From: Sinomicrobium oceani
GTDB taxonomy: Bacteria; Bacteroidota; Bacteroidia; Flavobacteriales; Flavobacteriaceae
Assembly: GCF_900119185.1 (NCBI RefSeq)
Contig: NZ_FPJE01000016.1
Location: 1-64,000 of the forward strand
Direction of reading: 5' to 3'
DNA: 64,000 nucleotides
The notes under the pieces were generated by a model. That model was not told the DNA's origin and ran no database searches. It saw only the letters and a program-made list of their open reading frames with translations. Positions 823-17,359 of this stretch are shown one piece after another. The translations under genes were made by a program, and so were the position numbers. How positions within the stretch are numbered: position 1 is the stretch's first letter; each line of letters begins with the position of its first letter.

Positions 823-833
823 ATCTATTGGTT

Positions 834-2381
834 TTAATTAAAATGTTCTTTTCCTCTGATGTTGGTGTGTACTGGTAACTGGAATAAGTCTAAAGGTTCT
901 TCTTCCAGATCAAAGGTTTTGTTGTTCAGGGTGTTTTTGATAAACTTATACTGCAAGCAGTTCAGTTCAAGTGCCTTTTTGCAGGTTTTTATATAGTTGG
1001 ACTTGGGGTGTTTTTTGGCCAGATTCAACAGTCCCATACAGCTTCGGTAAGCCTGTTCGGGATGATCGCGACTGTCCAGGACCTTAGTGATGAGTTGTTC
1101 TACTTCAGGGCCAATGGATCGGCCCCAGCGGATAAAACGATCCGGGGTCCATGCGGCCTGGAAGTGATGATGGGCCGGGCGATGTTTACTCTTTGTGGTA
1201 TATTTATAGGGGGTGTGGTCGCGCCGGTGCAGCGCAATCCTTTGGTGATCAAAATAAGCCTCCAGGTAACGGTCGGTATAGATGACCCTGAGCTGTTTTC
1301 CCGTATACTGAAAAGGGACACTATAATAATGTTTGTCTTCTTTTAAATAAATATGATGATTGTATTGCACCTTGAGTTTGCAAAAGTGTTTTAATTCATA
1401 CCATGTAGTGGGCAGCGGCTTTAACTCTTTTTTCTCCACCTGGTCAAAGAGCATTTGCCGGCTAAAGGGTTTGTTTTGAAAAGACTTTTGATTGTGTTTA
1501 TCCAACTGATCCCAAAGGGCTTCATTGAGTTCTTCTATAGAATAAAAGACCTGATTGCGCAAAGGGGCATAGATACGCTGATAGGCAATGCGCACAAAGT
1601 TCTCCGCTAAGGCCTTGTCTTTTGGGTGTAAAGCTCTGGCCGGTAAAATAACGGTTCCGTAATGCGCGGCAAAATCCTGATAGGTCTGATTGATTTCAGG
1701 TTCGTATTTATGGGATTTACTCACCGCAGCACGTAAACAATCCGGGACAATGGCTGCCGGAGCACCTTTATAAAAACGAAGGGCATTTTGATTTACGGCC
1801 ACCCAATCGGCTTTCTTTTGCGAGGGGACTGCTTCAATATAACACAACTGGCTACAGCCAAGAACACTGACAAAAATTTCACAAGCTTTTCGTTTACCAG
1901 TGGTCCGATCCGTGATATAAAGTTTCTGTCCTGCAAAATCCACAAAGAGCTTATCGCCAGCCTTATGCTCCATATGCATACTGACTTTGCTCTCTTTACG
2001 CCAATGATAATAATGATGGCAAAATTGGCTGTATTCATAGCCTTCTTTATGGATCTGCCGGTATTCTTCCCAAAGCAGTTGCAGGGTTACCCCTACCTTT
2101 TTAAGCTCCTTTTCAAAATAAGGGAAAAGCTTTTCTAAAACAATGTATCGGGGATTTTGGGTTTGCTTCCTGATATTGAGTAAGTGGATGAGCTCACTGT
2201 CACTCATCCCGGAGATTCCCCTAATGGGAAGACCACTGCTTTTAAAACCCGCAATATACTGGCTGGCTGCGGTTTTACCGATGCCTACAATTTTAGCCGC
2301 CTTTCGGCCACTAAGCCCTTGCTCAAAATATAAACGTAATAGTTCGCGTACTTCTCTCATACCTATCGGAATGTTGGCCAT
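834..2381 (-). CDS. istA: IS21 transposase IstA
   Basis: This 515-residue DDE transposase cuts and joins the ends of the element. An N-terminal helix-turn-helix is visible (about residues 18-50, GLSGRKAAKIVGIGKTAASQ). The integrase core follows, with catalytic candidates Asp in LFVDFAG, Asp in AIVPDCLRA, and Glu in KDKALAENFVR. The C-terminal part has the usual basic beta-barrel region. Length and order with istB are typical of IS21. The start is placed at the ATG at 2381, after which the six-repeat end lies upstream and probably overlaps the promoter. Confidence 0.95.
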   Translation of the reverse strand: MANIPIGMREVRELLRLYFEQGLSGRKAAKIVGIGKTAASQYIAGFKSSGLPIRGISGMSDSELIHLLNIRKQTQNPRYIVLEKLFPYFEKELKKVGVTLQLLWEEYRQIHKEGYEYSQFCHHYYHWRKESKVSMHMEHKAGDKLFVDFAGQKLYITDRTTGKRKACEIFVSVLGCSQLCYIEAVPSQKKADWVAVNQNALRFYKGAPAAIVPDCLRAAVSKSHKYEPEINQTYQDFAAHYGTVILPARALHPKDKALAENFVRIAYQRIYAPLRNQVFYSIEELNEALWDQLDKHNQKSFQNKPFSRQMLFDQVEKKELKPLPTTWYELKHFCKLKVQYNHHIYLKEDKHYYSVPFQYTGKQLRVIYTDRYLEAYFDHQRIALHRRDHTPYKYTTKSKHRPAHHHFQAAWTPDRFIRWGRSIGPEVEQLITKVLDSRDHPEQAYRSCMGLLNLAKKHPKSNYIKTCKKALELNCLQYKFIKNTLNNKTFDLEEEPLDLFQLPVHTNIRGKEHFN

Positions 2382-2423
2382 TATCCTTCGTTTTATAAGT
2401 TAATGGCTCCAAGATGAGAAAAG

Positions 2424-2562
2424 TGTCCGTTTTGCTCCGGAATGGCTGTCCGCTTTAAAACGGAATCACTGTCCGTTTTGAAACGGAACGGGTGTCCGTA
2501 TTAATCCGGAATGACTGTCCGCTTTCCAGCGGAATGGGTGTCCGTTTTAAGCGGAATATGCA
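2424..2562. repeat. IS21 end upstream of istA, six 23-bp transposase-site repeats
   Basis: Six consecutive units begin at 2424, 2447, 2470, 2493, 2516 and 2539. Each starts TGTCCG and contains CGGA 8-10 bases later, so every unit is itself an imperfect palindrome. The spacing is exactly 23 bp. The last unit ends in ATATGCA, the tip of the element. Six sites is a long array compared with the two at the other end. Confidence 0.85.
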
Positions 2563-3069
2563 GATATAATTACCAGCACTGGAATACAAATAGTCCCCCG
2601 CACGCTCCACAATACCTGTTCTTACAGGATTTAAATGGAGATAGTCTAACTTAGACCACAGAAATTTTTCGCTATAAACCTCTTCGGAATGGTTACCGTA
2701 TTGCCAGAATTGGTATGTTTTATTCCTGGAATGCGTACTGGCTGCCCTGGCAAATCGTTCCAGCATCCATTCCCTCCTGCTTTCCGGTACGGTTTGTATT
2801 TTTTCCAGAATGGTCTTGGCAGTAAACTTCTTAAAATCTCGTAACAAACCCGATAAGTCCCCGGCTTCCGACTGTACCACCATATGCAGGTGGTTGCTCA
2901 TAAGCACATACCCATATAGTAGCATCCCTTTATTAACCATACAAAACCGTAAGCTGTCCAATATACAGTCTTTATAAACTTTCCTTGTAAATACATCTAT
3001 CCAATCCACCACGGTCAGGGTAATAAAGTGTGGTTTGGAAGCGTCACGTATGCTATATCCTTCTGGCAT
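2563..3069 (-). pseudogene. REP-associated (RAYT-type) Y1 transposase, interrupted by the IS21 element
   Basis: The first 169 codons encode a small HUH-type transposase of the TnpA_REP/IS200-like family. The metal-binding HUH motif is seen in SNHLHMVV near residue 60, and the family-typical HLNPVR...Y.YSSAGNY segment lies near the end. After SSAGNYI the IS21 tip begins, and the frame then runs through the IS repeats to a chance stop at 2455, giving a chimeric C-terminus. The missing tail should lie beyond base 1. RAYTs are known to be single-copy domesticated transposases linked to palindromic REP sequences, and two REP-like hairpins occur upstream. The region around DFKKFTAK, where many relatives carry the catalytic Tyr, reads Phe. 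Confidence 0.85.
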
Positions 3070-3186
3070 GGCTTTGTTCCTTTTAGAAGCAAGTTACAAA
3101 AAACGTGATTTAAGCCTGTAAATATCGTTTTTGGAAGCCCCTCAGAGAGGAGCACGACGTATTGGCCGTCATCGATGTGCAGTGAA

Positions 3187-3210
3187 CTGCGAAGTCGAAG
3201 ACATTCGCAG
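3187..3210. repeat. REP-like hairpin near the RAYT gene
   Basis: A 7-bp stem CTGCGAA/TTCGCAG encloses a 10-base loop. It shares its stem sequence with the hairpin at 3911-3933. It lies about 120 bp upstream of the RAYT start codon, where REP elements tied to such genes are often found. Confidence 0.5.
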
Positions 3211-3236
3211 AGCCTACAACACTTCGTTGAGCGGGA

Positions 3237-3443
3237 GTAATATACCGACTGCCAACTGAGTACTTTACTGTCAAAAAGGGCTTTTACAGGCAATTGATAC
3301 CACTGAACACCCGTTTTGAGTTTGTAAAGGATGGCATTAACGATCTCAACCAATGGAACCGTCGGAGCAAATCCTCGATTCGTCTTTGGTATGTAAGGGA
3401 CTATTTCCAATGCTATTGTATCTTTGTCAAGTACAGAGTACAT
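3237..3443 (-). pseudogene. N-terminal fragment of an IS5-like transposase
   Basis: The first 69 or so codons from the ATG at 3443 match the N-terminal domain seen in IS5/DUF4096-type transposases: the pattern VNAILYKLKTGVQW.QLPVKALF....LSWQSVYY is characteristic. After that motif the reading frame continues into unrelated sequence and no catalytic DDE domain is present. It is therefore a truncated relic. The breakpoint near 3237 adjoins the REP-like sequence that precedes the RAYT gene. Confidence 0.75.
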
Positions 3444-3505
3444 AAAGGGTTGGTTTTGATAATTGTATGTTTCGCAACACAAATATCTGCAACCCTTTTT
3501 TATTT

Positions 3506-3838
3506 TTAAAAAAAGTTTAAATCACTTCTATATCTAAAGTTATCATAAAATCTCAAAATAGGAATAGGTCTATTTTTATAATATTCATCATCTGATACTA
3601 ATTTATCATACATCCTTTCATTGGATGAGAAATTATCTTCTCCCATATAGGTTCTATAAAGCCTATAAATTCCCACTGTATTAATTCTACTATTTTCATT
3701 ATTATTTCCAGAAGAGATTAAACTAAATTTAGGTTTTTTAGGCCAAAACCCTCCTTCGCTTGTGTGAATCCAAGTTTTACATGAAAAAATAGAACCCAAA
3801 ATAAACATTAATACTAATAATACTCTATTTTTTACCAT
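3506..3838 (-). CDS. Small putative lipoprotein, unknown function
   Basis: The 110-residue product starts with a basic n-region and a hydrophobic stretch ending in a lipobox (GSIFSC, Cys20), so it is probably a lipid-anchored exported protein. The rest is polar, rich in Asn, Tyr and Arg, with no recognised domain. The gene is AT-rich and isolated between transposon relics. The C-terminus ends abruptly 62 bp from the IS5-like fragment, so it may be a shortened version of a longer protein. The function is unknown. Confidence 0.5.
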   Translation of the reverse strand: MVKNRVLLVLMFILGSIFSCKTWIHTSEGGFWPKKPKFSLISSGNNNENSRINTVGIYRLYRTYMGEDNFSSNERMYDKLVSDDEYYKNRPIPILRFYDNFRYRSDLNFF

Positions 3839-3910
3839 AGCGAATAAGAGTTAGGTGATTGATATTGAAAATATGGCTTCCAATTCCAGGATTGATTTCT
3901 GAACCCCGCT

Positions 3911-3933
3911 CTGCGAAGTTTACAACTTCGCAG
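3911..3933. repeat. Perfect REP-like hairpin
   Basis: Perfect inverted repeat CTGCGAAGTT-TAC-AACTTCGCAG (10-bp arms, 3-base loop). It shares the CTGCGAA stem with the hairpin at 3187-3210. It is not followed by a T-run on either strand, so it is less likely to be a simple terminator than a REP-type element. Confidence 0.55.
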
Positions 3934-4040
3934 CCCAAACCTTCAATAAAAAGAAAAAAACGAAAAACGCCTCTCTGTGGCGTATCCCTGTTTCTCACAA
4001 GTCTTACTTCATTTATTGCTGCAAAGACGTGGTCAATGAA

Positions 4041-4357
4041 GAATACTCCCTGTAATGGTGCAAAAAGGTAAAACCGGGATGATTCCGGGCCTTGTTGACC
4101 CCTTCAAAATAAAGCATTAACGCATTATAGCGATCGTTCTCTATGGTCGTATAGGCTGGAAACTGGGCTCGTAAAGCACCCTGGTCAAAAGACAATAATG
4201 CTTCCAGGGTATATTTACTGGCCTTGAAGAGTTTTATATAATGATTGACTGTATTGCGGGAGAGCCCTAAAGTGGTTCCTATGTTGCGATTGCTAAAACC
4301 GTCTAAGTGTAATCGGATGATTTGCTTTAAGTCCATTGGATCAAGTGTGTCGGCCAT
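4041..4357 (-). pseudogene. Truncated IstA of a second IS21-family element
   Basis: From the ATG at 4357 about 105 codons encode the N-terminal helix-turn-helix region of an IstA protein (LKQIIRLHLDGFSNRNIGTT, then LSRNTVNHYIKLF) and the start of the linker ending in HPGFTFLHHYREY. The integrase core and istB are missing. The protein is of a different IstA subgroup from the intact copy at 834-2381. Its own end repeats lie directly upstream at about 4390-4590. Confidence 0.8.
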
Positions 4358-4394
4358 GCTGCTTTTTAACAGCAAGGTATTTATACTTGATCTT

Positions 4395-4590
4395 TCCCAG
4401 TGGCACCATTCAAACCGAAAGAAATGGCACAAATCAAAACGTTAATCCCTAACACCGGTATAAAGTGGCATCATTTGAACCGTTACACTGGCACAAAACG
4501 AACCGTTACCGCCATTACGTAGTGGCACAATTTAAACCGAAACCCCTGGCATTAACCAGCCATTTTTACTGGCACAAATTGTTCCGAGAT
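4395..4590. repeat. End repeats of the second IS21-family element
   Basis: At least six degenerate copies of a motif close to tGGCACnAttnAAACCG occur here, for example TGGCACCATTCAAACCG, TGGCATCATTTGAACCG and TGGCACAATTTAAACCG. They sit upstream of the truncated istA, where the transposase-site array of an IS21 element is expected. The last unit, near 4570-4590, probably marks the tip. Its sequence is unrelated to the repeats of the intact element. Confidence 0.7.
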
Positions 4591-4596
4591 ATCCAG

Positions 4597-5352
4597 TCAT
4601 GAAGAGAATTGTGAAGAAGAGAACTTTTCCTTCAATACCAAAAGAATAAATTTCGTATTACCAATCAAATATCTTTTCCACATCCTTCCGGGTTCCTGGA
4701 GAAAACGATAAAACCATTCCAGGCCGGCTTTTTGCATCCATATAGGGGCACGTTTTACTTTTCCGGCCACTACATCAAAGCTACCGCCAACTCCCATAAT
4801 AAAGTTTACACCGGATAGTAGCTTCCTGTTTTGATATAAAAAATTTTCCTTAGTAGGCGAACTAATGGCCACAAACAGCATGTGAGCACCACTATCCGAA
4901 ATCTGCCGGGCTATATCCTTCTCTTCTTCTTTTTTGAAATATCCGTTGCGATAACCTGCAATAATATCAGGAGAGTATTGCTCCTTGTACTTTTCAACAA
5001 CTTTCATGACCACTTCTTCTTTTGCCCCGAAAAAGAATATTTTATATCCTTTTTCATATGCCATCCCCACCAAATTAGTCATGAGGTCGATTCCCGCCAC
5101 CCGTTCTTTCAGGGGCTTTCTCAAAAACTTAGAGGCCCATACTACAGCCTGGCCGTCTGCATTGATCAGGTCACTTTCATTGACACTTTTGCGTAGTTCC
5201 AGGTCTTTTTGCATGGCAACGATTTTCCCTGCGTTGACTACAACGTGGTGGAGTTGTTGTTGCTTTGTAATGGTGTTTTCTATCTCTCGCAGGGTTTCCT
5301 GCATGGAAAGATTATCTATTAAAACATTCAAAAGTTTAATTTTATGACTCAT
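4597..5352 (-). CDS. WecG/TagA/CpsF-family glycosyltransferase (GT26)
   Basis: The 251-residue protein belongs to the family that adds ManNAc or ManNAcA to a lipid-linked acceptor at the cytoplasmic face of the membrane. Family motifs are visible: NADGQAVVWA near residue 65, RVAGIDLM, a GVGGSFDVVAGK block near residue 190, and the terminal region PIWMQKAGLEWFYRFLQEP with RMWKRYL. It is the last gene of the polysaccharide operon and abuts the preceding stop codon. With wecB and wecC upstream, the likely donor is UDP-ManNAcA; this is an inference. Confidence 0.85.
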   Translation of the reverse strand: MSHKIKLLNVLIDNLSMQETLREIENTITKQQQLHHVVVNAGKIVAMQKDLELRKSVNESDLINADGQAVVWASKFLRKPLKERVAGIDLMTNLVGMAYEKGYKIFFFGAKEEVVMKVVEKYKEQYSPDIIAGYRNGYFKKEEEKDIARQISDSGAHMLFVAISSPTKENFLYQNRKLLSGVNFIMGVGGSFDVVAGKVKRAPIWMQKAGLEWFYRFLQEPGRMWKRYLIGNTKFILLVLKEKFSSSQFSS

Positions 5353-6540
5353 TTATTTAATCTCATCTTTTGAAGTAGACAGAAAAATTGTGACTAAAAG
5401 CGGGAACAAAACCTCCCCACTATGGCGTTTCAGGAGTGATTCGGACATCATGAATAATAAAAATACAACTAAAATCAACATGTAAGTCAGCTCTCTGCCT
5501 AATAGCATTGACCTAAAAGAATAAAAAAAGATATACGAAAGTGCAGTTAAGCCGATAAGTCCAAAATACAAAAGCTGTTCTAAAAACTGATTATGAGCAT
5601 TATACTCATTTTTAGCAGCAATCTCATAACCTGCCTTTTTATATTCCTCCACCAACCCTTTATGCCCATCTCCTGTACCTTTCCCTAAAAAAATATTTCC
5701 CTCTAGATATGACTTTCCAACCGCCTCCCATAAAATTACTCTTTCATTAATATTAGACGCTTTTTCATGACGGATTCTAGTTTGTAAATTGGGGGAAAAA
5801 AAAACTAATGGAAGACAAGAAATGAAAAAAAAGCCAAAAAACACATGCTTTTTCTTCATCGACTTATAAGACCAAACAAATCCGAGGATTAGTACAACCC
5901 ATAAACTAATAAAACTAATTTTTGCACTAATCATGTATAATATGAACAACATATATATAATTGCACATAAATTCAACCAATCTTTTAACTTTAATCGAGA
6001 TGATAATTTTAATTTATTGGTCACATGAATTATGGACACACATGTAAAGAGTGAAAAATACGTCGTATGGATACCTAATACCTTTGCAAAATCCAAGTAA
6101 TAGAAATAATCTCCTAAACCATTATACATCAACCAAAACGCCTTTAACAAACCTATTAAAGATGCTATAATTGTAGCAATGGAAAAATAATCCAATAGAA
6201 AACCAACCTTTTCTTTAGTAATCCCTTTTACTGAAAAAAAAATTAAAGGGAAAATTAAAAAAGGTATAAATAAATCGGAAAGCACTCCATGAAAAGAATC
6301 GGTATAAAATAACCCGAGAAGAGAAATCCAAAAAAGACTTGAAACAATCAAAAAAGATCTCTTATTCTCTTTTAAATATTTTCTCTTACTGGACAAAGAA
6401 TTATAAAATAACCAGTAAATACACAGAACAATTATACTTTGGGTATTTAAACTATATTTAGGAAATGGTATAGTAATAAAAACTATAGACAACAACCCAT
6501 AAAATATCTTTTCTTTTAAAATTGCTCTACTGTTACTCAA
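5353..6540 (-). CDS. O-antigen ligase/polymerase-like membrane protein (first of two)
   Basis: This 395-residue, very hydrophobic protein has about ten predicted membrane helices and a long periplasmic loop (about residues 240-310) containing GKGTGDGHKGLVEEYKKAG and YNAHNQFLEQLLYFGLIGL. The H-N-x-F/Y-L...G..G pattern is typical of the Wzy_C (WaaL/Wzy/RfaL) superfamily, which ligates or polymerises lipid-linked glycans on the periplasmic side. It overlaps the preceding gene by 8 bp. Whether it acts as ligase or polymerase cannot be told from the sequence. It is strongly AT-rich. Confidence 0.8.
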   Translation of the reverse strand: MSNSRAILKEKIFYGLLSIVFITIPFPKYSLNTQSIIVLCIYWLFYNSLSSKRKYLKENKRSFLIVSSLFWISLLGLFYTDSFHGVLSDLFIPFLIFPLIFFSVKGITKEKVGFLLDYFSIATIIASLIGLLKAFWLMYNGLGDYFYYLDFAKVLGIHTTYFSLFTCVSIIHVTNKLKLSSRLKLKDWLNLCAIIYMLFILYMISAKISFISLWVVLILGFVWSYKSMKKKHVFFGFFFISCLPLVFFSPNLQTRIRHEKASNINERVILWEAVGKSYLEGNIFLGKGTGDGHKGLVEEYKKAGYEIAAKNEYNAHNQFLEQLLYFGLIGLTALSYIFFYSFRSMLLGRELTYMLILVVFLLFMMSESLLKRHSGEVLFPLLVTIFLSTSKDEIK

Positions 6541-7441
6541 TGCTTTTTAATATTTCTTTTATGTATACTCTGTACCCCTCCTTAGATAAATCATATGTAT
6601 TATCCTCTCGTATCTCACTTCCTCCGACTAAATTCTCTAAATCAATTAAAATTATTTTTTCATTTTCATTCCATTGCTTCATAAATTGATTTTTCTTTAA
6701 AATCATCGGGTTCAATTTACAATTAATCTGTGGCCATGTATTGATAATTACCTTTCCATTCCTAAGCAATAATTTATTTATCAATTTTTCATATTTATAA
6801 AAATCCTTTTTCTCACTCAACTTTCCTAGAAACACTATATAAAACGAGACATTTGGTGTATGAAAGTAATCTTTTTTATAATCAACCGGATCATAAAAAT
6901 ATCCATAAATATCTTGTTTAGACCCAATGAAGTTTACTTCCCTATTTTTCATTTTAATGCTACGTCTAAGAGATCTATACCTACCCCATTTATTATCCGT
7001 ATTACCTATAAAACAAACATTTATTCCTTCATTATTTCGCTTGTAATTTAGTTTTATCTCATTAACTTCTGCTTTCTTTATATTCTTATTTTCAGGTATT
7101 TTAGTAAGCCATATCCCTCCTTTTAAAAATAATACTGAATCCCTTACTATTTTATATTCATGTCTAAAATAATACTTCTTACCTTCAGAGGTTATCAATT
7201 CTATGGTATTGCTATTCTCTACATGACTTAAATCATCTTTATCATATTCGATTCCTACTGAATTATGCGTAACAAAATATATTCGTTTGACTCCATAACG
7301 ATTAATCAACTCTTTTTTTTCCCAATCAAAATCCATTTGGGGAAACTCTCTATATCCCTTTACTTTAAAATCTATAAGTATATATATAGCTATTAAGCTA
7401 AAAATAAATACATAAAACCTAATGGAGGGAAAACACTTCAC
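6533..7441 (-). CDS. Degenerate SGNH/GDSL-hydrolase-like protein with membrane anchor
   Basis: The 302-residue protein has an N-terminal membrane helix (about residues 8-25), a beta-rich middle, and a C-terminal part (about 140-302) with the layout of SGNH hydrolases of polysaccharide loci: a VCFIGNT block, then FIGSKQDIYGYFYD, then a central block, then IILIDLENL and a YDLSKEGY end. In active relatives the first block is GDS, the third contains GxND and the last DxxH. Here they read GNT, GKLS and DLSK, so the catalytic Ser, Asn and His appear absent. A non-enzymatic or altered role is inferred; the fold assignment itself is tentative. Confidence 0.5.
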   Translation of the reverse strand: MKCFPSIRFYVFIFSLIAIYILIDFKVKGYREFPQMDFDWEKKELINRYGVKRIYFVTHNSVGIEYDKDDLSHVENSNTIELITSEGKKYYFRHEYKIVRDSVLFLKGGIWLTKIPENKNIKKAEVNEIKLNYKRNNEGINVCFIGNTDNKWGRYRSLRRSIKMKNREVNFIGSKQDIYGYFYDPVDYKKDYFHTPNVSFYIVFLGKLSEKKDFYKYEKLINKLLLRNGKVIINTWPQINCKLNPMILKKNQFMKQWNENEKIILIDLENLVGGSEIREDNTYDLSKEGYRVYIKEILKSIE

Positions 7442-7450
7442 TGCCAGTCC

Positions 7451-8497
7451 TTATTTTAAATAGCACTCTAATAATTTATTAAAAACATTGTCAGTATTAA
7501 ACTCTTCAAAGCTATTCCACGCATTTAAAGAATAATTTTCATAATTTTTTTCATCCAATAATTTTATTTTATCGAGTAACTCGTCTGAATCCTTCGGTTT
7601 TATCAAAAAGCCATTATAATTATGGATTATTATTTCATCTATTGCCTTCCATTTAGTAGTAATCACCGGCATTCCGATGGACAAGGATTCAATAATAATT
7701 CCAGGATACCCTTCTCCTTCAAAAAATGTAGGCAGTAGGAGAACATCGTATTTCTTAAGTATTTCAATTACCCTATTTGCCGGTACCACACCTTTGTATT
7801 TACAATTTCTTTTATTCAGCTCTTCCTCTGCATAATCTCCTTTACCAATAGGGCCATAAATATCTACACTATAGGAAGCATCTAGATTCTCAAATGCTTT
7901 CAAAATAGTTCCAATTCCCTTTTCCTTAATAACCCGAGAAATAAACACAAATTTTTTGCTATACTTTTTTTTTCGGTTTTCCGTAAAAACAGTTTCTCTA
8001 GAATTTGGCAACCATAAGAGACTAGTAGTCTTCTGAAAATTGAACTTCTTAACAAGATTTTTGGTTTCAAAAAGCACATAATCACTTCTAAAAATTGTAT
8101 TATTTATGAATGATTTGAGTACAGACGGTAAAGAATTGTATTGATTATCAAAATTTCCTCCAAAAAAATGAACTACTATTTTCTTGTTATTGAACCTAGC
8201 TATCCAAACCAACAAAGGAGATAGGCTGATATTCATATCCGGTGTCGAATGTATACTAATAACATCAAATTTCCTAAAAAGGACAGGAGCTTTAATTAAC
8301 AGAATAATAAAATCTAAAATTTGAAATTTTGGTCTCCAGTTTTTTCTAAATTGGTAATGCTCAATACACAGACTGTTTTTTTTTATCAAATAATTTAATA
8401 TTCTTTCAGATAGTACTGTGGCCCCTCCTATAGATCGCTTGTCCGGTACGGGAATATTAGCAAGAAATAGTACTCTTAATTTTCGATGATTTTCCAT
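7451..8497 (-). CDS. Glycosyltransferase family 4
   Basis: A 348-residue GT-B glycosyltransferase. The N-terminal domain begins LRVLFLANIPVPDKRSIGGA and the C-terminal domain holds FISRVIKEKGIGTI and the donor-binding E-x7-E type motif EGEGYPGIIIESLSIGMPVI near residue 265. It transfers a sugar from a nucleotide donor to the growing lipid-linked repeat unit in the cytoplasm. The start overlaps the end of the upstream polymerase gene by 41 bp and the gene is 9 bp from the next, so it is clearly part of the operon. The sugar specificity cannot be predicted. Confidence 0.88.
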   Translation of the reverse strand: MENHRKLRVLFLANIPVPDKRSIGGATVLSERILNYLIKKNSLCIEHYQFRKNWRPKFQILDFIILLIKAPVLFRKFDVISIHSTPDMNISLSPLLVWIARFNNKKIVVHFFGGNFDNQYNSLPSVLKSFINNTIFRSDYVLFETKNLVKKFNFQKTTSLLWLPNSRETVFTENRKKKYSKKFVFISRVIKEKGIGTILKAFENLDASYSVDIYGPIGKGDYAEEELNKRNCKYKGVVPANRVIEILKKYDVLLLPTFFEGEGYPGIIIESLSIGMPVITTKWKAIDEIIIHNYNGFLIKPKDSDELLDKIKLLDEKNYENYSLNAWNSFEEFNTDNVFNKLLECYLK

Positions 8498-9674
8498 AAT
8501 ATATTATAGGATATATTAATAACATGGATATCGATAAATACACCAAATTATTAAGAGAATATGTAAATAACGCATCCAGGAATAAAGCAATATAAACAAT
8601 GAGGATAATCTTCAAGTATTTTACATTCAATTGTTTCAATTTAAAAAGAGGAACAAAAAAAATTAAAAGATATAATGTTGCACCAATAAAACCAAGTTCA
8701 ACAAATAAATGGGGGTAATACGTATCTGTTGTTTGTAAATTAGGTAGGCCAAACCAATTAAAGTTAACCTCTTCATAAAAAGGAGAATTATATTTTGTTG
8801 ACGCCGGACCTCCAAAAGCTCCTAAACCCTCACCAAATAAAAATCCGGTTTCTCTAAACATTATTCTATAAGATTCTGATCTAGCCGAAGTTCCTTCCAA
8901 TATATAAGCTCGTAACCTAACGATTGCATTGTCAACAAAAAATACAACTTTTAATGGGAAAGCTATAGTTACTATGAGAAAGGTAAACAAGGAAGTTACA
9001 AAAATTTTCAATTTATTCTTGGCCAAGAAAAATAAGAGTACAAAAAAAGTGACAATCCCCTTAAAAGACAAACTTAAAAACAAAAAAACAACAGTACTAA
9101 TTAGAAGTATTTTTTTGAATTTACCTTCATAAAGAAAACTAATTAAAAAATACATTATTATATTGAAGAATCCAAAAACACTAAAAAAACCCATCAATCC
9201 TGTAGCTCTCAGAATGCCAGACACGGCAGGAATATTCACCCGTCCAGTAGGAGAGTATATATAAAACCATTGGTCTATCCCTTGCCACCACAACAAATAG
9301 TTAATAATCTGCGCAATATAATTTAGTATCAAAAAAAACAGTAGAAATTTAAATATTACCTCAAACTGCTTTCTTAAAGTATAACCATAAAATAAAACTA
9401 CTATAGGAAATAAATATCTAAATAATTCTTCACAAGCAGCACGATAACTAAAAGAAGCAAAAAAATGAACTATTAAAAAAGGTACTACTAAAAAAGAAAA
9501 AAAAACAAGTTTCTTGTCCAATTTTCCATAAACTATCGCAATTATGACCATAAGTATAACTGATACCAACTTTAAAACAAGACCGGCGACAGGATATACA
9601 AACCTAAAATATTCCGATACAAAAATTAATAAAATTGGAAATATTACAACTGTATTCTTTATGGATATTTTCAA
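8457..9674 (-). CDS. Wzy-like polysaccharide polymerase (second of two)
   Basis: A 405-residue membrane protein with about ten to twelve hydrophobic segments. A large loop (about residues 260-325) contains FGEGLGAFGGPAST and TTDTYYPHLFVELGFIGATLY, the TD...E.G..G pattern of O-antigen polymerases. It would join repeat units on the periplasmic side after export by the flippase. It lies between two glycosyltransferase genes, 13 bp from the upstream one, and is very AT-rich with poly-A and poly-T runs. Confidence 0.8.
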   Translation of the reverse strand: MKISIKNTVVIFPILLIFVSEYFRFVYPVAGLVLKLVSVILMVIIAIVYGKLDKKLVFFSFLVVPFLIVHFFASFSYRAACEELFRYLFPIVVLFYGYTLRKQFEVIFKFLLFFLILNYIAQIINYLLWWQGIDQWFYIYSPTGRVNIPAVSGILRATGLMGFFSVFGFFNIIMYFLISFLYEGKFKKILLISTVVFLFLSLSFKGIVTFFVLLFFLAKNKLKIFVTSLFTFLIVTIAFPLKVVFFVDNAIVRLRAYILEGTSARSESYRIMFRETGFLFGEGLGAFGGPASTKYNSPFYEEVNFNWFGLPNLQTTDTYYPHLFVELGFIGATLYLLIFFVPLFKLKQLNVKYLKIILIVYIALFLDALFTYSLNNLVYLSISMLLIYPIIYYGKSSKIKSTISC

Positions 9675-9687
9675 GACCGAGAAACTA

Positions 9688-10695
9688 TTAATTCAATAGA
9701 TTTTTTGTTATTAGCACATTCCGAATATCACTAATATATTTTTCCCTATCATAAAAGTTAGTAAAAACCTCAGAATATTCTTTATGCATATTAGCATAAT
9801 CGAAATTTACCTCATTTTCAAACAATAAAATTTGCTCTAATGCATTTTGCAAATTAAAATTATCGGATAATTCAATTTTATATTTGACATTATCAAGATA
9901 TATTTTAAAAGCATCTATTACTCCAGAGTAAATAGGCACGACTCCCGACGCCATATAGGTATTAAGTTTATTTGGGGTAGAAACTCTGTTTATCGTAATA
10001 TCTTCCCTTATAAGAAAGCCATATTTAAATTTTAATAAATAATCAGGAAGTTCTTTTAACGAAACATAATTCACCTTTACATTATCTAAGCCATATTTAG
10101 CTAATAATTCTTGTGCTTTAGTTTTTTCTTTAGTAAGTATTTCTAAAGAAGCATTTGGAATTTCCCCATTGATCTCTTTAAATAATTTCAACGTTTCTTC
10201 AATACATTGCCACTTCGATAATGAACCAATATAAACAAAAGAAATCTCATCTCTCTTCTTATGAGTAAAATCACCGATCTCTGCATTAAAGCAAGGCATT
10301 ATGTAGTAATTTGCACCGTTATAATTATATTTTTGCCGGTAGTGCTCAAGCATAGCACAGGAGACAAAAAAATTGTACTTACAGGTTTTTAAGGCAAACC
10401 ATTCCATTAAAGTATAAACATAATATCTCATCTTACTCTTTTGCCACATCAAGGATTCTTCCGGAAGTATTCCCTGATACCAGTTAACAATAATTGCTCT
10501 TGGGTTAAATATCCTTGCGAAAAAATAATCTTTCACAAAATAAGTAACTATCATATCGGCATTTTTTAACTTCCTAATATTATCCGTAATATTCAACTTC
10601 TTTTCGCCAGTCAATGCTTCATTAATTATTTTTAAATATACAATGACCGCATCACTAATAGTTTCAAACTTTGTTAAATAGAAAATAACCTTCAA
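9688..10695 (-). CDS. Glycosyltransferase (GT-B, GT4-like)
   Basis: The 335-residue protein has a divergent N-terminal half and a recognisable C-terminal GT-B half: FVYIGSLSKWQCIEETLKLF near residue 155, then VSLKELPDYL and KYGFLIREDITINRVSTPNKLNTYMASGVVPI. The last block is the donor-binding region seen in GT4-like enzymes that act on polysaccharide repeat units. The start codon overlaps the stop of the upstream pyruvyl transferase by 4 bp, which implies translational coupling. Confidence 0.78.
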   Translation of the reverse strand: MKVIFYLTKFETISDAVIVYLKIINEALTGEKKLNITDNIRKLKNADMIVTYFVKDYFFARIFNPRAIIVNWYQGILPEESLMWQKSKMRYYVYTLMEWFALKTCKYNFFVSCAMLEHYRQKYNYNGANYYIMPCFNAEIGDFTHKKRDEISFVYIGSLSKWQCIEETLKLFKEINGEIPNASLEILTKEKTKAQELLAKYGLDNVKVNYVSLKELPDYLLKFKYGFLIREDITINRVSTPNKLNTYMASGVVPIYSGVIDAFKIYLDNVKYKIELSDNFNLQNALEQILLFENEVNFDYANMHKEYSEVFTNFYDREKYISDIRNVLITKNLLN

Positions 10696-11879
10696 TTGTT
10701 AAGATGTTTTTTTATTTGAGTTAAATAATTGTCATTATTTTTCAATTCTTCTATTTTAGAATGAAAATTAGATCTATTTATTCTGATAATTTCAAGTATT
10801 TTATTTATTACAACTTCAGAATTATTAAACTGCTCTAGGTCAATAACAAATTCATCACTTCCATATATTAAGTTAGCCATCCCTAAAGATTTCTTACTAT
10901 AGGATAAAAATATGGCGGGCACAAAAGAAGTAACTGCATTTACGGCACAATGCATTCTTGCAGCAAGAATCAAATCACATTTAACAATCTCTTCCTTAAT
11001 TCCTATAAACCCCGGGTCGTTTTCCACAATCTGTATTTTTTCAGGAAAATCCTCAGAGACTTTACTTTTTATTTCCAACAGATATCCATAATCATCATCT
11101 TTAATATTTTTGGATAAGACATGTGGCAATAGAATTACAGAACAATTTAACTTTTTAATTATATCTTTGATCGTTTGAGTTTGACTATCAATAGCTTTTT
11201 TTACATCATCTGTATAATAAAGAGTGGATAAAGGACTCAAATTGATCCCAATAGTAAAGATATCTGTTGTATCATCAGATAGTTGTTTCACTTTATTTGG
11301 AGCCACACTAAATGCAGGATCGGGACAAAAAATTGTATTTTTGTCAATCCCTATCTGATTCAAGTATCTCACAGTTTCTAGTTCCCTACAAACAATAAGA
11401 GAAATATTATTTAAGTGTTTTTGAAACTTTTTTAAAATTTTTGGGTGTCTATCAAAAGGCCCAATAGAACATCCCCAAAGAATATACTTTTTACCTTTTT
11501 TAACCGCTATATCACCAAATTTCATTAATGAGTAAGGGTAATAACCTTCTGAGCTAATTGTATACATATCTCCGCCAATAGAAACAATAACATCATAATT
11601 GTCTATTAGATCAAAAGAATCTATATACACCGGATAATCCACATTGACAAAAGATAATAACTTTCGAATACCACGCTTAATAATACTATTGTGGAAAGGA
11701 CGTTCTATTATTTCTATATCACATCCTTTTAACCGCTTACTATCCTCTTCTACATTAAAAGATGCATAAAAAAAAGTTGCCTCCGGAAAAACAGTTTTCA
11801 AATTATTAACCGTCCCTCGTACAATAGCTTCACACCCATAGTTATATACACCCCAAATTCCGTATAATAAAACTTTCAT
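10692..11879 (-). CDS. Polysaccharide pyruvyl transferase family protein
   Basis: The 395-residue protein fits the PS_pyruv_trans (WcaK/CsaB) family, which transfers pyruvate from phosphoenolpyruvate to a sugar as a ketal. Supporting segments are the N-terminal GIWGVYNYGCEAIVRGT, SIGGDMY near residue 100, ILWGCSIGPFD near residue 153, and the C-terminal ILAARMHCAVNAVTSFVPAI with YSKKSLGM. The length is typical. It overlaps its neighbours by 4 bp on both sides. Together with the FrhB-like protein upstream it forms a pair often seen in surface-glycan loci. The modified sugar is unknown. Confidence 0.88.
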   Translation of the reverse strand: MKVLLYGIWGVYNYGCEAIVRGTVNNLKTVFPEATFFYASFNVEEDSKRLKGCDIEIIERPFHNSIIKRGIRKLLSFVNVDYPVYIDSFDLIDNYDVIVSIGGDMYTISSEGYYPYSLMKFGDIAVKKGKKYILWGCSIGPFDRHPKILKKFQKHLNNISLIVCRELETVRYLNQIGIDKNTIFCPDPAFSVAPNKVKQLSDDTTDIFTIGINLSPLSTLYYTDDVKKAIDSQTQTIKDIIKKLNCSVILLPHVLSKNIKDDDYGYLLEIKSKVSEDFPEKIQIVENDPGFIGIKEEIVKCDLILAARMHCAVNAVTSFVPAIFLSYSKKSLGMANLIYGSDEFVIDLEQFNNSEVVINKILEIIRINRSNFHSKIEELKNNDNYLTQIKKHLNN

Positions 11880-13261
11880 GATCTTATCTTCAATTTTCTA
11901 AGCCAATATTTTTTTCTAAATAAATGTTCTATTCTTGTATAAAGCAATAACTTCTTCTTTGTCCCGTAAATCTTTTTCTCAAAACCCATTCCCCCATTAT
12001 TTCTCTCTTCAAGCCAATACTGAGTACTCTCATTCTGAATTTTCTGTCTTAAGCCAAAAATTCGGGATTTTAAAGGATTCTCGAAAAAAACTCTTTTAGT
12101 CCTTTTTGGGGGAACAATATGCGCCTTTTCCGAAGCCCATTTTAAGCGATAGGATAACCCTATTCTCCTATGATTATAATTGCCTTCCTGAGATTTAAAA
12201 ACTTGTTTTGAAGAAATTTGTTTACAGGATAATTCTCCTATATCAATCCCTTTCTCTATTAAATTATTTGAAAAAACTGTTCTTGTTATGATAATACTAT
12301 GTCCTCTTCCATCTTTACTGAACGGGGGAATCCATGCATCTCCCAATGAAATATCAGCTAATTCTCCCGATAAATCCTCACAAAAGTCGCAAGCATTTGG
12401 CTTAAAATACCCTGTTCCCCACATATCCCCAACCTCTTTCATCGGTATTGAACGTGGTTTTTGTTCTCCTTTTTTAATACAAGAAAAAGAATAATCTGAT
12501 GCACTTGATTTGATGTCTTTAACACGATATTTGGGTGTAGTAATTTCACCATGTTTCACATTCACTTTGGAAGCCAAATATTCAGTAAAAAAAGAACTTT
12601 TTAATCCTCCACAAAAAATACTGATCGTAAACTTAATACAACCCCATCTTTTCGGGTTATTAATTTGAGCTAACCTTATCGCTTTAATGGTACATGGCAA
12701 CCCAATTATCGCATACTTCCCTCCTTTTAGTTCTGTCAATTTTAAAACTTCACTGACCTCTATTGGATAATATTTTGTTTTAGTTGTTAAATCTAATTCG
12801 CCTATATCTTCAATTATAGTATATTTAAAAAACCTCTCTTCATCTGAATTATCACCGATAGTTGCAATTACGTAATCTACTATTTTATTTTTTAATAATT
12901 CTCTAAGCAACCATGTAGCTACTCCTCCAGATGATGCTTCCTCTCTAAATGCTGAAGCATAGCCAGCATATAATGAATAATATCTGCCGAATGCCTTAGA
13001 TAAATTATAAGAACTATCCTGTATCCCTATTTTAACTGATATGTCTTCTTCAATCTTTAATTCCTCATCAGGAAAAGGATTAAAAGGACAAACTTTTAAA
13101 CAGTTTCCTGTTTCATCGCAATGATCTTGTATCATAAAAGGTTCATAAGTCCCTTTTTCTCCTAATCTTACTTTTAAGCTTTCTGAAGGACAGACCGCAA
13201 CACACATTCCACAGCCCACACATAAATCATTAGCTACTACGCTGGAAATTACATTCTTCAT
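11876..13261 (-). CDS. FrhB-like (coenzyme F420 hydrogenase/dehydrogenase beta-subunit family) Fe-S protein
   Basis: The 461-residue protein begins with a ferredoxin-like part: CVGCGMCVAVCP (residues about 15-26) and a second cluster CDETGNCLKVCP near residue 48, giving eight Cys for two 4Fe-4S clusters. The FrhB N- and C-terminal domains follow, with SSGGVATWLLRELL near residue 109 and a Cys-rich CDFCEDLSGELADISLGDAW segment near residue 289. Flavobacteria are not known to make F420, so a different flavin or electron carrier is inferred. The reaction in glycan synthesis is unknown. Confidence 0.85.
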   Translation of the reverse strand: MKNVISSVVANDLCVGCGMCVAVCPSESLKVRLGEKGTYEPFMIQDHCDETGNCLKVCPFNPFPDEELKIEEDISVKIGIQDSSYNLSKAFGRYYSLYAGYASAFREEASSGGVATWLLRELLKNKIVDYVIATIGDNSDEERFFKYTIIEDIGELDLTTKTKYYPIEVSEVLKLTELKGGKYAIIGLPCTIKAIRLAQINNPKRWGCIKFTISIFCGGLKSSFFTEYLASKVNVKHGEITTPKYRVKDIKSSASDYSFSCIKKGEQKPRSIPMKEVGDMWGTGYFKPNACDFCEDLSGELADISLGDAWIPPFSKDGRGHSIIITRTVFSNNLIEKGIDIGELSCKQISSKQVFKSQEGNYNHRRIGLSYRLKWASEKAHIVPPKRTKRVFFENPLKSRIFGLRQKIQNESTQYWLEERNNGGMGFEKKIYGTKKKLLLYTRIEHLFRKKYWLRKLKIRS

Positions 13262-13263
13262 TT

Positions 13264-14757
13264 TTAATCCTTTAATAATAAATTGTAAAAAAGTCCAACA
13301 AAAGTGATAAATAAGATTACAAGAGCAAATATTCTAAAGATAACATTTTCAAAACTATAGTTATAAAAAACAATAAAGGTCCCTGAAAAAATTATCCAAA
13401 TTAGTATTGCCCACCTGGACGTAATCAGTGTCAAAGGAATAATTTTCTTCTTTATATAGATTGGAATTATTAAGATCGTATTTATTACGTATGCAATAAA
13501 ATAAGAATAAGCCAGAGTTTCTGCATTTTTATTTTTTACAAAATAAAAAAATAACACTAATAAAGTTCCCCAAACTAAATTGCTGAAGAAACTAAACCAC
13601 ATTAAACTATTCACAATCATGATCCGCGCAATTCCTTGTTTATAAAGGATAATTGTAGTAGTAAGCATAATTAAAAATAATGTTTTCCGATAATTATCGT
13701 CTCCCGTATATTCCTCTCCCAGAAAAACATTAAATATAGATGGAAAAAAAAGTATGGGAAGAACCATACACGTTCCTATTGCCCAAGGAATTATTAGATT
13801 CAATTTTTCAATTCTTTTGTCCTTTTTTTCTTTCACCATAATTGTTATTAATGGTGCATCCAGCGTTGCAGTAATCATTAGTATCATGTTTTGAAAAAGT
13901 ATTATTGCTGCATAAAGTCCTAACTCTTTGTATCCGCTTGGTTGGTTTACCATAATAGTGTCCACACCCCATTTAAATGGAATAACCATTACTCCGGTTA
14001 AAATCGCTGGCAAAGTAAACTTCTTGAGAATCTTAACTTCATCTTCAAGTTTAAACGCAAACTTCAGTCCATACTTTATCATATTTCTTTTTAGAAAGGT
14101 TCCTCCTAAAAGCACTAAAATAAAAGTGCTAAAAGTAAACCCCGCAAAAGTTCCTTCAACTCCGTATCTTATAGTACCTATGTATAATGAGGCAAACAAA
14201 CAGATACCATACAGGAAACCTATCAATAGAAGCCCTTTAAAATCTTTAAAGCCTTTTAAACAACCTGATATAAGACTATCAACCACACTTAAAAATAAAA
14301 GAAAAGAGCTGATTTTTAAAGTATCAGCTAATTCAGCAGAGTTTAAAATATTTTTTGAAATGTATGGCGCTCCAAAAAAAAGTAAAAAACTTAAAATCAA
14401 CCCAATAAAACAAGAAAAAACAGCTGACCATGTAATGATGCGACTAACCTTATCTTTATCTTTAGTTATTAATTCAGGAATATACTTAGTTGTCGTTAAA
14501 GCTATACCTGACCCTGCAAAAATCATGAATAAATTAATAGTAGACCTTATAACTCCAACCTGACCATTTCCTTCCTTACCTAATATTTTTGCCACCATTA
14601 ACCACGCTACAAAAATTAATCCTTTTGAAATAACAGATGCCAAAAGTGACCAAAAAGAATTTATAGAAAGTTCTTTAAGATCACTGGAGTTGTTTATCTT
14701 TCTTAATAGCAGTTTTATTTTTCCCAAACAAGTTCTTTTTTCTAATAGACCCCACAA
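13264..14757 (-). CDS. Polysaccharide flippase (Wzx-like, MOP superfamily)
   Basis: A 497-residue integral membrane protein with about twelve to fourteen helices, starting with an amphipathic leader and then NSFWSLLASVISKGLIFVAWLMVAKILG, the usual opening of oligosaccharide flippases. It would move lipid-linked repeat units across the inner membrane. The ATG at 14757 overlaps wecC by 16 bp. A start a few dozen codons downstream is possible, because the first 25 residues look poorly conserved. The gene is 2 bp from the FrhB-like gene. Confidence 0.87.
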   Translation of the reverse strand: MWGLLEKRTCLGKIKLLLRKINNSSDLKELSINSFWSLLASVISKGLIFVAWLMVAKILGKEGNGQVGVIRSTINLFMIFAGSGIALTTTKYIPELITKDKDKVSRIITWSAVFSCFIGLILSFLLFFGAPYISKNILNSAELADTLKISSFLLFLSVVDSLISGCLKGFKDFKGLLLIGFLYGICLFASLYIGTIRYGVEGTFAGFTFSTFILVLLGGTFLKRNMIKYGLKFAFKLEDEVKILKKFTLPAILTGVMVIPFKWGVDTIMVNQPSGYKELGLYAAIILFQNMILMITATLDAPLITIMVKEKKDKRIEKLNLIIPWAIGTCMVLPILFFPSIFNVFLGEEYTGDDNYRKTLFLIMLTTTIILYKQGIARIMIVNSLMWFSFFSNLVWGTLLVLFFYFVKNKNAETLAYSYFIAYVINTILIIPIYIKKKIIPLTLITSRWAILIWIIFSGTFIVFYNYSFENVIFRIFALVILFITFVGLFYNLLLKD

Positions 14758-15950
14758 AAATCCAACACAACCTTATCCTCAGTAATCTTCAAATCTTTGA
14801 ATTCATTATGACCTACCAAAAACACTAAAATATCCGCCTTTTTCACCGCATCCTTATAGTCAGTCAGCTTAAAGACCTTATGTTCTGAAATATTAGGCTC
14901 CACTATATAATACTCTTCATTATTGGCATTCTGTAAAACCTTTTGTACTATATATTTCGCTGGGGATTCCCGTAAATCATCAATATTAGGCTTAAAGGCC
15001 AATCCCATTAAAGCTATACTTGGTTTACGCCCATGTCTCAGTTCAAATTCCAGTTTTGCCGTTTGTATCTTCTCGGCACACCAGAAGGCTTTATAATTAT
15101 TAATTTCCCTGGCTTTACCTATTAATTGCGATTCCATGGGATAATCAGATACGATAAAATAAGGATCAACAGCAATGCAATGCCCGCCAACTCCACAACC
15201 CGGTTTAAGAATGTTCACCCTCGGGTGCCTATTGGCAAGTGAAATTAATTCCCACACGTTTACTCCCGCTTTATCACATATAATGGATAGCTCATTAGCA
15301 AAAGCAATCTGGACATCCCTTGAGGAGTTTTCCACCAACTTACACATTTCGGCCGTACGTGCATTTGTTCTATGCAGATCTCCTTTTACAAACCTACTAT
15401 AAAAAGCTGCCGCTTTTTCTGTGGATTTTTGATCTATTCCTCCTATTACCCTATCATTATGAACCAGTTCATACATTACATTTCCCGGCAAAACACGCTC
15501 CGGACAATAGGCTATATTAATCTTATCTTTAAGCTCCGGTCGCTCACTATAGATTAATTCCTGCATTTTCTCGGTTGTGCCCACGGGAGAAGTAGACTCA
15601 ATGATATACAGATCGCCTTCCTTAAGTAATGGTATGACAGCTTTGGTGGCAGATTCCACAAAAGAAATATCAGGTTCATTTTTACCTTTAAAAGGTGTGG
15701 GAACAACAATCAGGTAAATATCTGCTTCAACAGGGGTAAGCGCGGCCTTCAAGTACCCGTTTTTTACCGATTCAGCTACTGCCTTATCCAGTTCCGGTTC
15801 TATAATGTGTATTTTCCCTTCATGAATCGTCTCCACAACAGAGGGATTTATATCCACGCCATGTACAAACACCTCTTTTTGTGCTATAAGTGCAGCGGTA
15901 GGGAGGCCTATATATCCCAAACCAACCATGACCACCTCGGGTTTCTTCAT
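14742..15950 (-). CDS. wecC: UDP-N-acetyl-D-mannosamine dehydrogenase
   Basis: The 402-residue NAD-dependent enzyme oxidises UDP-ManNAc to UDP-ManNAcA in two steps. The Rossmann motif GLGYIGLP lies at residues 7-14. The central domain carries the catalytic Cys in PGCGVGGHCIAVDPY (near residue 258), and the C-terminal UDP-binding domain has GLAFKPNIDDLRESP. Length and motifs fit the WecC group better than UDP-glucose dehydrogenase. It follows wecB, 28 bp downstream, in the same operon. Confidence 0.92.
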   Translation of the reverse strand: MKKPEVVMVGLGYIGLPTAALIAQKEVFVHGVDINPSVVETIHEGKIHIIEPELDKAVAESVKNGYLKAALTPVEADIYLIVVPTPFKGKNEPDISFVESATKAVIPLLKEGDLYIIESTSPVGTTEKMQELIYSERPELKDKINIAYCPERVLPGNVMYELVHNDRVIGGIDQKSTEKAAAFYSRFVKGDLHRTNARTAEMCKLVENSSRDVQIAFANELSIICDKAGVNVWELISLANRHPRVNILKPGCGVGGHCIAVDPYFIVSDYPMESQLIGKAREINNYKAFWCAEKIQTAKLEFELRHGRKPSIALMGLAFKPNIDDLRESPAKYIVQKVLQNANNEEYYIVEPNISEHKVFKLTDYKDAVKKADILVFLVGHNEFKDLKITEDKVVLDFCGVY

Positions 15951-15978: not shown

Positions 15979-17133
15979 CTATTTTAAAACCTGAGTCAAT
16001 GAGCTTACATTACTTATGTATTCCACTATTCTTCTACATGCTTCCCCATCTCCATATGGATTATGATTTTTACTCATAGCATCATATAACTCGACATTAT
16101 TCAATAATTTTTCCGTCTCTCTGACTATTTTTTCCTTGTTGGTACCAACAAGGAACACCGTTCCGGCTTCAACAGCTTCCGGTCTTTCTGTGGTATCCCT
16201 CATAACCAATACAGGTTTGCCAAGGCTAGGGGCTTCCTCCTGTACTCCCCCGCTATCCGTAACTATTAAATATGCCTTTTCCATAAGCCATACAAAAGCA
16301 GGATAAGATAAAGGCTTTATTAAGTTGATATTATCTACTTCAGCAAGTAATTCATATACCGGCTTCTGTACATTAGGGTTTAAATGTACCGGATAAATTA
16401 TCTGAACATCGGGATTCTCTTGTGCTATTTGTTTCAGGGCTTTACAAATGGCTATAAACCCTTCTCCGTGATTTTCTCTACGGTGACCGGTAACAAGAAT
16501 CTGTTTTTTCCCTTTTTTAATCAGCTCTTTCAAATACTCTATTTCCTTATCCTGAAAATCCGTTTGTTTTACTTTATCTACACTATAAAATAAGGCATCA
16601 ATGACTGTATTACCGGTGACAACAATATGCTCTTCCTTTTTATTTTCCCCAAGCAGGTTATTTTTTGAAGTCAGGGTCGGAGCAAAATGTATATCCGAAA
16701 CTACACCCGTAACACATCTGTTCATTTCCTCCGGAAAAGGGGATTGCATATTATACGTTCGTAATCCCGCTTCTACATGGCAGACCTTGGCACCCGAATA
16801 AAATGCCGCAATACTTGAAGCCATAGTAGTTGTCGTATCTCCGTGCACATAAACAAAATGAGGTTTAAATTCCTCTAAAACTTCTTTCAGGCTGCTAATG
16901 ATATCCGCAGTAAGTGAATATAAATTCTGACCAGGCTTCATAAGGTTCAGGTCATAGTGCGGAATAATATCGAAAAAAGAAAGAACCTGGTCCAGCATTT
17001 CCCTGTGTTGAGCTGTAATACAAACCTTAGTATCAAACTGATTGGGATGTTTCTGAAACTCTTTTACCAAGGGGGCCATCTTAATGGCCTCTGGTCTTGT
17101 TCCAAAAATAATCAGGTTTCTTATCTTATTCAT
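15979..17133 (-). CDS. wecB: UDP-N-acetylglucosamine 2-epimerase (non-hydrolysing)
   Basis: The 384-residue enzyme interconverts UDP-GlcNAc and UDP-ManNAc. The N-terminus IIFGTRPEAIKMAPL is diagnostic, and VHGDTTTTMASSIAAFY, HVEAGLRT, VTGHRRENHGEGF and TDSGGVQEEAPSLGKPVLVMRDTTERPEA follow in the expected order. The frame is open upstream, but the ATG at 17133 directly precedes the conserved start, so the longer reading is rejected. This is the first gene of the eleven-gene operon; the 250 bp before it should hold the operon promoter, though I see no clear one. Confidence 0.94.
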   Translation of the reverse strand: MNKIRNLIIFGTRPEAIKMAPLVKEFQKHPNQFDTKVCITAQHREMLDQVLSFFDIIPHYDLNLMKPGQNLYSLTADIISSLKEVLEEFKPHFVYVHGDTTTTMASSIAAFYSGAKVCHVEAGLRTYNMQSPFPEEMNRCVTGVVSDIHFAPTLTSKNNLLGENKKEEHIVVTGNTVIDALFYSVDKVKQTDFQDKEIEYLKELIKKGKKQILVTGHRRENHGEGFIAICKALKQIAQENPDVQIIYPVHLNPNVQKPVYELLAEVDNINLIKPLSYPAFVWLMEKAYLIVTDSGGVQEEAPSLGKPVLVMRDTTERPEAVEAGTVFLVGTNKEKIVRETEKLLNNVELYDAMSKNHNPYGDGEACRRIVEYISNVSSLTQVLK

Positions 17134-17359
17134 TACTGCTTTACTTTTAAGAGTCAATACTAAACATACAAATATGTCGGTCCATTGCCTTCTCCTCCAA
17201 GACGCCCCATTCCCCAAACCGTTGCTTAAAAACCCGGTCTAATTTCATAAAAACATCTTTATCCCCCTCCACCTCCGCGCAAAAGTACGATAATCCTGTA
17301 AAGTTCAAAGGGGAAAGTCCTATGCAAATACAAAACGTAGGCTTTATCCTCATTTTGCG

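Follow-up and report, generated by a model that had tools for sequence, protein, structure and literature searches.

A candidate lactate-ether module of an FrhB-type iron–sulphur protein and a pyruvyl-transferase-family protein in a glycan operon of Sinomicrobium oceani

MurA and MurB make a lactyl ether by enolpyruvyl transfer followed by flavin-dependent reduction. Lactate ethers are also known on O-antigens, capsules and exopolysaccharides, as described in sections of two papers (PMC10609480, PMC8466920), and the makers of these bacterial decorations are not well established. Enzymes of the PF04230 family use phosphoenolpyruvate (PEP), and CsaB R306/H308 and Pvg1p R337/H339 represent the R-x-H motif of its ketal-forming members (excerpts of PMC10435577). 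Here we describe a Wzx/Wzy glycan cluster of Sinomicrobium oceani (Flavobacteriaceae; assembly GCF_900119185.1), a single minus-strand operon of 11 genes, in which an FrhB-type iron–sulphur protein (FrhB) is encoded next to a PF04230 pyruvyl-transferase-family protein (PT). The operon lies in a stretch of 64,000 nucleotides (contig NZ_FPJE01000016.1, positions 1 to 64,000 of the forward strand), hereafter the window. Judging from sequence comparisons, FrhB and PT probably act as a module that places an O-1-carboxyethyl group, a lactate ether, on one of the sugars in the lipid-linked repeat unit.

Recurrence of the FrhB–PT pair

Open reading frames and Pfam matches confirmed the original prediction, made from the DNA of the window, that an FrhB-like iron–sulphur protein sits between a flippase and a pyruvyl transferase. 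Two nucleotides separate the flippase stop from the FrhB start, as predicted, but the 4 bp given for the junction with PT is an overlap (ATGA) and not a gap. The Sinomicrobium genome has no PF04432 match other than this FrhB, and all 11 genes recur in unchanged order in Arenibacter aquaticus, where FrhB and PT are 67% and 70% identical to those of the window; the placement of FrhB is therefore not a matter of chance.

In 395 Bacteroidota genomes, we found 90 PF04432 matches in 78 genomes and 90 PF04230 matches in 77, with both families present in 17. FrhB and PT genes lay within 2.7 kb of each other on one strand in 12 cases from 10 genomes, compared with 0.1 pairs expected when gene places were randomised on a 3-Mb circle (highest count, 3 pairs in 20,000 draws). 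Chance neighbourhood was rejected on this basis, and the co-occurrence check proposed with the original prediction came out positive. The other 78 of the 90 FrhB domains were unpaired, and ten of these solitary domains that we fetched formed a separate clade (support 100/100) and were not considered further. The fetched loci of this solitary class (L048–L057, Bacteroidales) lacked PF04230 pairing, and the two of the ten that were scanned with Pfam had no ferredoxin domain.

FrhB and PT were also found fused in both orders, as a PT–FrhB protein of 1018 aa on a Marinibacterium plasmid and an FrhB–PT protein of 798 aa (G173). Beyond Bacteroidota, the pair was present in Gallicola, on S. meliloti pSymB (in the order PT–FrhB) and on the Klebsiella aerogenes plasmid p35_D (L004, 13.5 kb), where the order is wzx–FrhB–PT–glycosyltransferase (GT). 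The small mobilizable plasmid p35_D consists largely of wzx–FrhB–PT–GT–GT, which suggests a transferable coat modification; its FrhB–PT DNA, used as a query, had no match in E. coli.

An anchor to known chemistry came from E. coli. The PT of plasmid p30COLEC-2, used as a query, led to five E. coli chromosomes. Three of the five regions were read and contain the O124/O164 O-antigen cluster (wzx, FrhB, PT, GT2, GT32, wzy, GT2, glf, GT2), and the match rows of the remaining two name the same wzx; in all, the O124 FrhB–PT DNA matched 8 of 5,426 genomes. We take the lactate-ether O-antigen of S. dysenteriae to be that of type 3, the same antigen as E. coli O124. E. coli O58 presumably has another lactate-ether O-antigen, whose cluster we did not locate. 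An O-antigen of S. dysenteriae contains 4-O-[(R)-1-carboxyethyl]-D-glucose (PMC10609480), and the O124 and O164 clusters are 98–99.9% identical (PMC4732683), according to excerpts of these papers. All other genes of the cluster encode GTs, processing proteins or Glf, so the O124 lactate ether has no candidate makers except FrhB and PT.

To tell FrhB-paired PTs from the rest, we used a profile trained on the paired set itself. Paired PTs scored 272–427 bits, as a consequence of that training, and four of 60 other PT loci scored 265–322 bits, the rest reaching at most 74 bits or giving no match; given how the profile was trained, only the four unpaired high-scoring PTs are an independent observation. 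Two of these four FrhB-less, O124-like PTs (L063 and L069) had a nitroreductase gene upstream. Using a profile built from these two nitroreductases, and counting matches upstream of PT on the same strand within 1.6 kb, we found a nitroreductase in 12 of the 60 FrhB-less PT loci (L063, L065, L069, L070, L075, L077, L081, L083, L084, L087, L109 and L115) but in 0 of 15 FrhB–PT loci. The two genes were directly adjacent or overlapping in eight of the 12, with a 4-nt overlap in L084. The idea of a nitroreductase, not recorded as a prediction before the result, came from gene counts in 79 Klebsiella capsule loci, for which excerpts of PMC4616057 give two nitroreductases and one coenzyme F420 hydrogenase along with 35 pyruvyl-transferase genes.

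Exchange between the two reductase types was visible on E. coli plasmids. In plasmid pBDSF8-3_3, one PT follows FrhB and another follows a truncated nitroreductase; 1,272 bp of the two match at 99.3%, and the copy following FrhB is frame-broken. In p30COLEC-2, the PT behind an FrhB fragment is 86% identical to that behind a whole nitroreductase. Because recombination between PT copies could explain this exchange, it shows modularity but not by itself equal function. Plasmids of E. coli rich in insertion sequences (IS; L131, L123 and L130) carry cassettes of flippase, FrhB or nitroreductase, PT and GT, some truncated or frame-broken, and the stretches shown contain no annotated resistance gene. 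Nitroreductase–PT pairs also occur on E. coli and Lactiplantibacillus plasmids. The recurring pairs, the two fusions and the nitroreductase found in the same place support the redox step in sugar modification that had been predicted for this locus; a putative redox step on the pyruvyl group, in particular, is well supported by these gene associations.

Sequence features of FrhB and PT

The window FrhB matched PF04432 (E 5e-26), PF04422 (E 3.6e-15) and Fer4_7 (E 1.4e-8), both FrhB domains scoring above their gathering cut-offs (91.8 versus 23.3 bits and 56.3 versus 22 bits). The original prediction of a two-cluster ferredoxin domain stood in part. The dicluster models Fer4_7 and Fer4_10 scored above their cut-offs and one [4Fe-4S] site is complete (Cys14, 17, 20 and 58, invariant in all eight aligned long-type relatives), but the second site is degenerate: the window and Arenibacter proteins retain three cysteines (24, 48 and 54), the fourth position being Thr51, and the remaining six long-type relatives have none or one left. 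Cys190, 217, 291 and 294 of the FrhB domain, predicted from the family to be cluster ligands, are conserved without exception in the 17 aligned relatives. This pattern of conservation suggests that the working relay is probably one ferredoxin-type cluster plus the FrhB-domain cluster. The window FrhB is 35% identical to that of E. coli O124 and falls with it in an 11-row subclade (support 100/99) of a tree that warns of long branches meeting. A scan of IMG/VR with the FrhB alignment found no relative.

The window PT exceeded the PF04230 cut-off (124.1 versus 25.3 bits) and fell below those of the CsaB equivalog TIGR03609 (71.1 versus 213.1 bits) and the WcaK equivalog (40 versus 399 bits). Arg165, Glu166, Asp187 and His310 are retained in all nine aligned PTs, E. 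coli WcaK among them. The PEP-site residues R165, R308 and H310 align with WcaK; their counterparts in CsaB, which was not in the alignment, were matched by motif only (R148, R306 and H308). Among solved structures, the PT profile found only Pvg1p (5ax7) at E 0.56, and the window PT as a lone query found none.

A proposed route to lactate ethers and its alternatives

In the proposed route, PT would bind PEP and move its three-carbon unit to a sugar hydroxyl, halting at the enolpyruvyl ether without closing a cyclic ketal. FrhB, presumably with FAD as its cofactor, as expected from the family, would then reduce the enolpyruvyl C=C bond to the lactyl ether, fed through the ferredoxin-type and FrhB-domain clusters. 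The adjacent Wzx would flip the decorated unit before polymerisation, as is established for such clusters, and a nitroreductase-family protein apparently fills the role of FrhB at other loci. This proposal draws on the use of PEP by PF04230 enzymes, the MurA/MurB route and vinyl reduction by the FrhB fold, which the FrhB-type 8-vinyl reductase BciB reportedly carries out in chlorophyll synthesis. Acceptor sugars differ among such loci, so the pyruvyl group is the probable substrate shared by all of them. More broadly, a PF04230 transferase with an exchangeable flavin reductase of FrhB or nitroreductase type may be a general lactate-ether module of bacterial surface glycans, a second invention of MurA/MurB chemistry from unrelated folds; we regard the case for this wider claim as evenly balanced. 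The loci concerned are in Bacteroidota, Proteobacteria and Firmicutes, and also on E. coli plasmids.

The Klebsiella types K8, K22, K37 and K66 have a pyruvyl-transferase gene and no pyruvate ketal, according to an excerpt of the capsule-locus survey (PMC4616057). K22 contains 4-O-[(S)-1-carboxyethyl]-D-glucuronic acid, as the title of a paper states, and K37 has the sugar sequence of K22 without O-acetyl (excerpt of PMC7246685). If the proposal is true, the pyruvyl-transferase genes of unpyruvylated capsules such as K22 and K37 would be explained, the two-gene signature would predict lactate ethers from sequence, and a function would be found for many glycan-locus genes annotated as 'F420 hydrogenase' or 'nitroreductase'. 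A full-text literature search, with the main O-antigen reviews outside its reach, found no paper that assigns FrhB and PT to lactate ethers or otherwise names the enzymes behind these ethers; the earlier statement that the redox step is not described thus holds for the texts searched and does not extend to those reviews.

Several observations weigh against the lactyl-ether proposal. Pfam revealed only PF04230, FrhB and Fer4-type domains in the window FrhB and PT, with no homology to MurA or MurB. The window PT shares only 18% identity with the O124 PT and has the WcaK-like motif R-M-H instead of S-F-H. The window and Arenibacter PTs thus belong to a different PF04230 subfamily and could make a ketal; PT is the weakest link, and the window is tied to a lactyl ether by the relationship of its FrhB to that of O124 and by the close coupling of the two genes. 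The AlphaFold models could not be used (mean pLDDT 40.3 and 42.2). In three of the five O124/O164 chromosomes PT is annotated in two pieces, and in two it is whole; the step may be dispensable there, or the strains differ, possibly including some without the ether. Two loci of the O124-like PT class without FrhB (L064 and L073) have no nitroreductase near PT, in genomes without PF04432. In addition, the O124 and K37 chemistry is in part presumed.

PT might instead form an ordinary cyclic pyruvate ketal, with FrhB independently oxidising or reducing either the acceptor sugar or the nucleotide precursor of that sugar. Consistent with this, the window PT has the R-x-H motif typical of ketal-forming enzymes (R308-M-H310), E. 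coli WcaK, the enzyme of the colanic acid ketal, works in a cluster without FrhB, and the E. coli and B. subtilis controls match PF04230 but not PF04432. However, FrhB tracks PT and not any single sugar-nucleotide pathway, the two are joined directly in two fusions, and O124 has no other modification left to explain, so we consider this alternative unlikely. The same lactyl product could be reached in another order, with PT closing the ketal and FrhB opening it reductively. A standard PT would then do, which fits the R-M-H type of the window, but we know of no flavin enzyme that opens a ketal reductively, whereas the enolpyruvyl route has a precedent in MurB; this order seems quite improbable. 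Nor do we give much credence to a non-catalytic or regulatory role for FrhB alongside PT, such as that of a redox sensor. The degenerate ferredoxin part and the three O124/O164 genomes with a broken PT and a whole FrhB would fit such a role, but the four invariant FrhB-domain cysteines and the unrelated reductase that occupies this position at other loci make it very improbable.

The remaining alternative is that FrhB is truly F420-dependent, using F420 or a deazaflavin related to it that is either imported or made by genes outside our count. Its profile matched F420-dependent enzymes among solved structures at E 1e-25 to 1e-27, including the F420-dependent sulfite reductase 7np8 (E 8e-27). 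By contrast, the window FrhB scored 44.1 bits against a cut-off of 331.5 for the F420 hydrogenase beta equivalog TIGR03289. The host genome (99.98% complete) gave no CofD match and two CofH matches that, at 21.3 and 20.4 bits, lay far below the cut-off of 374.1, in a search that did not include CofC and CofE. On these CofD and CofH results F420 use by the window FrhB is unlikely; F420 dependence was rejected, and we find this alternative scarcely credible. The original prediction of an aerobe without F420 therefore agrees with what was searched, and the three matches to heme-copper oxidase subunit I are consistent with a host that respires oxygen. Its view that an FrhB-type domain is odd in such a host did not survive, because FrhB-fold enzymes that do without F420 are known. 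One of them, the 7-hydroxymethyl chlorophyll a reductase 5dqr, was matched by the profile (E 4e-11); we take it to use FAD and two [4Fe-4S] clusters and to be driven by ferredoxin without F420.

The operon and its closest described relatives

The genes of the operon are listed in the table. Downstream of the pair, the start of the probable GT overlaps the PT stop.

Table. Genes of the glycan operon in the window
Feature	Position	Strand	Evidence
UDP-GlcNAc 2-epimerase (WecB)	15979..17217	-	TIGR00236, 500 bits vs cut-off 210
UDP-ManNAc dehydrogenase (WecC-like)	14742..15950	-	NCBIfam PRK11064, 532 bits vs cut-off 459
Wzx-type flippase	13264..14757	-	PF01943 E 1.5e-15; WzxE-like by NCBIfam, under the model's cut-off
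FrhB-type protein, 461 aa; proposed enolpyruvyl-ether reductase	11876..13261	-	PF04432, PF04422, Fer4_7
PF04230 PT, 395 aa; proposed enolpyruvyl (or ketal-pyruvyl) transferase	10692..11879	-	PF04230 E 1.3e-35
Probable GT	9688..10695	-	No family at E 0.001; Arenibacter counterpart; role suggested by place
Probable polymerase (Wzy-like membrane protein)	8457..9674	-	No Pfam match; Arenibacter counterpart; suggested by hydrophobic sequence and place
Glycosyltransferase, GT4 type	7451..8497	-	PF00534 E 5.3e-24
Operon protein without assigned family	6533..7441	-	No Pfam match; Arenibacter counterpart
O-antigen ligase/polymerase family (Wzy_C) protein	5353..6540	-	PF04932 E 2.7e-12
WecG/TagA family glycosyltransferase; fits a ManNAcA-containing repeat	4597..5352	-	PF03808 E 1.5e-61

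The G+C content is 28–36% around 6–16 kb, compared with 42–51% over most of the remaining window. Positions 88–4432 contain an IS21-type IstB (PF01695) together with an IstA-like open reading frame and transposase-like fragments, the last two recognised by eye. These IS-type genes and fragments adjoin the end of the low-G+C glycan cluster, which fits horizontal gain. Elsewhere in the host genome (contig C55, 22886–25703; L107) there are two further PF04230 matches, and no FrhB or nitroreductase was found near them.

The window PT shares PF04230 and the R-x-H motif with the ketal-pyruvyl transferases CsaB, WcaK and Pvg1p, and differs from them in its coupling to FrhB and in its scores below the CsaB and WcaK equivalog cut-offs. 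With the F420-reducing hydrogenase beta subunit, FpoF and Fsr, the window FrhB has PF04422/PF04432 and the four FrhB-domain cysteines in common, but it lies far under their equivalog cut-offs and F420 synthesis was not found in the host by the CofD and CofH searches. The 7-hydroxymethyl chlorophyll a reductase has the same FrhB fold with only weak sequence likeness, and BciB uses this fold without F420, as proposed for the window; the substrate of both is a pigment. MurA and MurB resemble the proposed pair in logic, with PEP-dependent enolpyruvyl transfer before flavin reduction to a lactyl ether, but their folds are unrelated by Pfam, and MurB is not known to contain an iron–sulphur cluster. 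The E. coli O124/O164 cluster (FrhB WP_000236767.1, PT WP_000861297.1) has the wzx–FrhB–PT–GT order and the 4-nt FrhB/PT overlap of the window, and its FrhB belongs to the same supported subclade. It differs in having a PT of another subfamily, in lacking wecB and wecC, and in an FrhB that has lost the second ferredoxin cluster and has no Fer4 match by Pfam.

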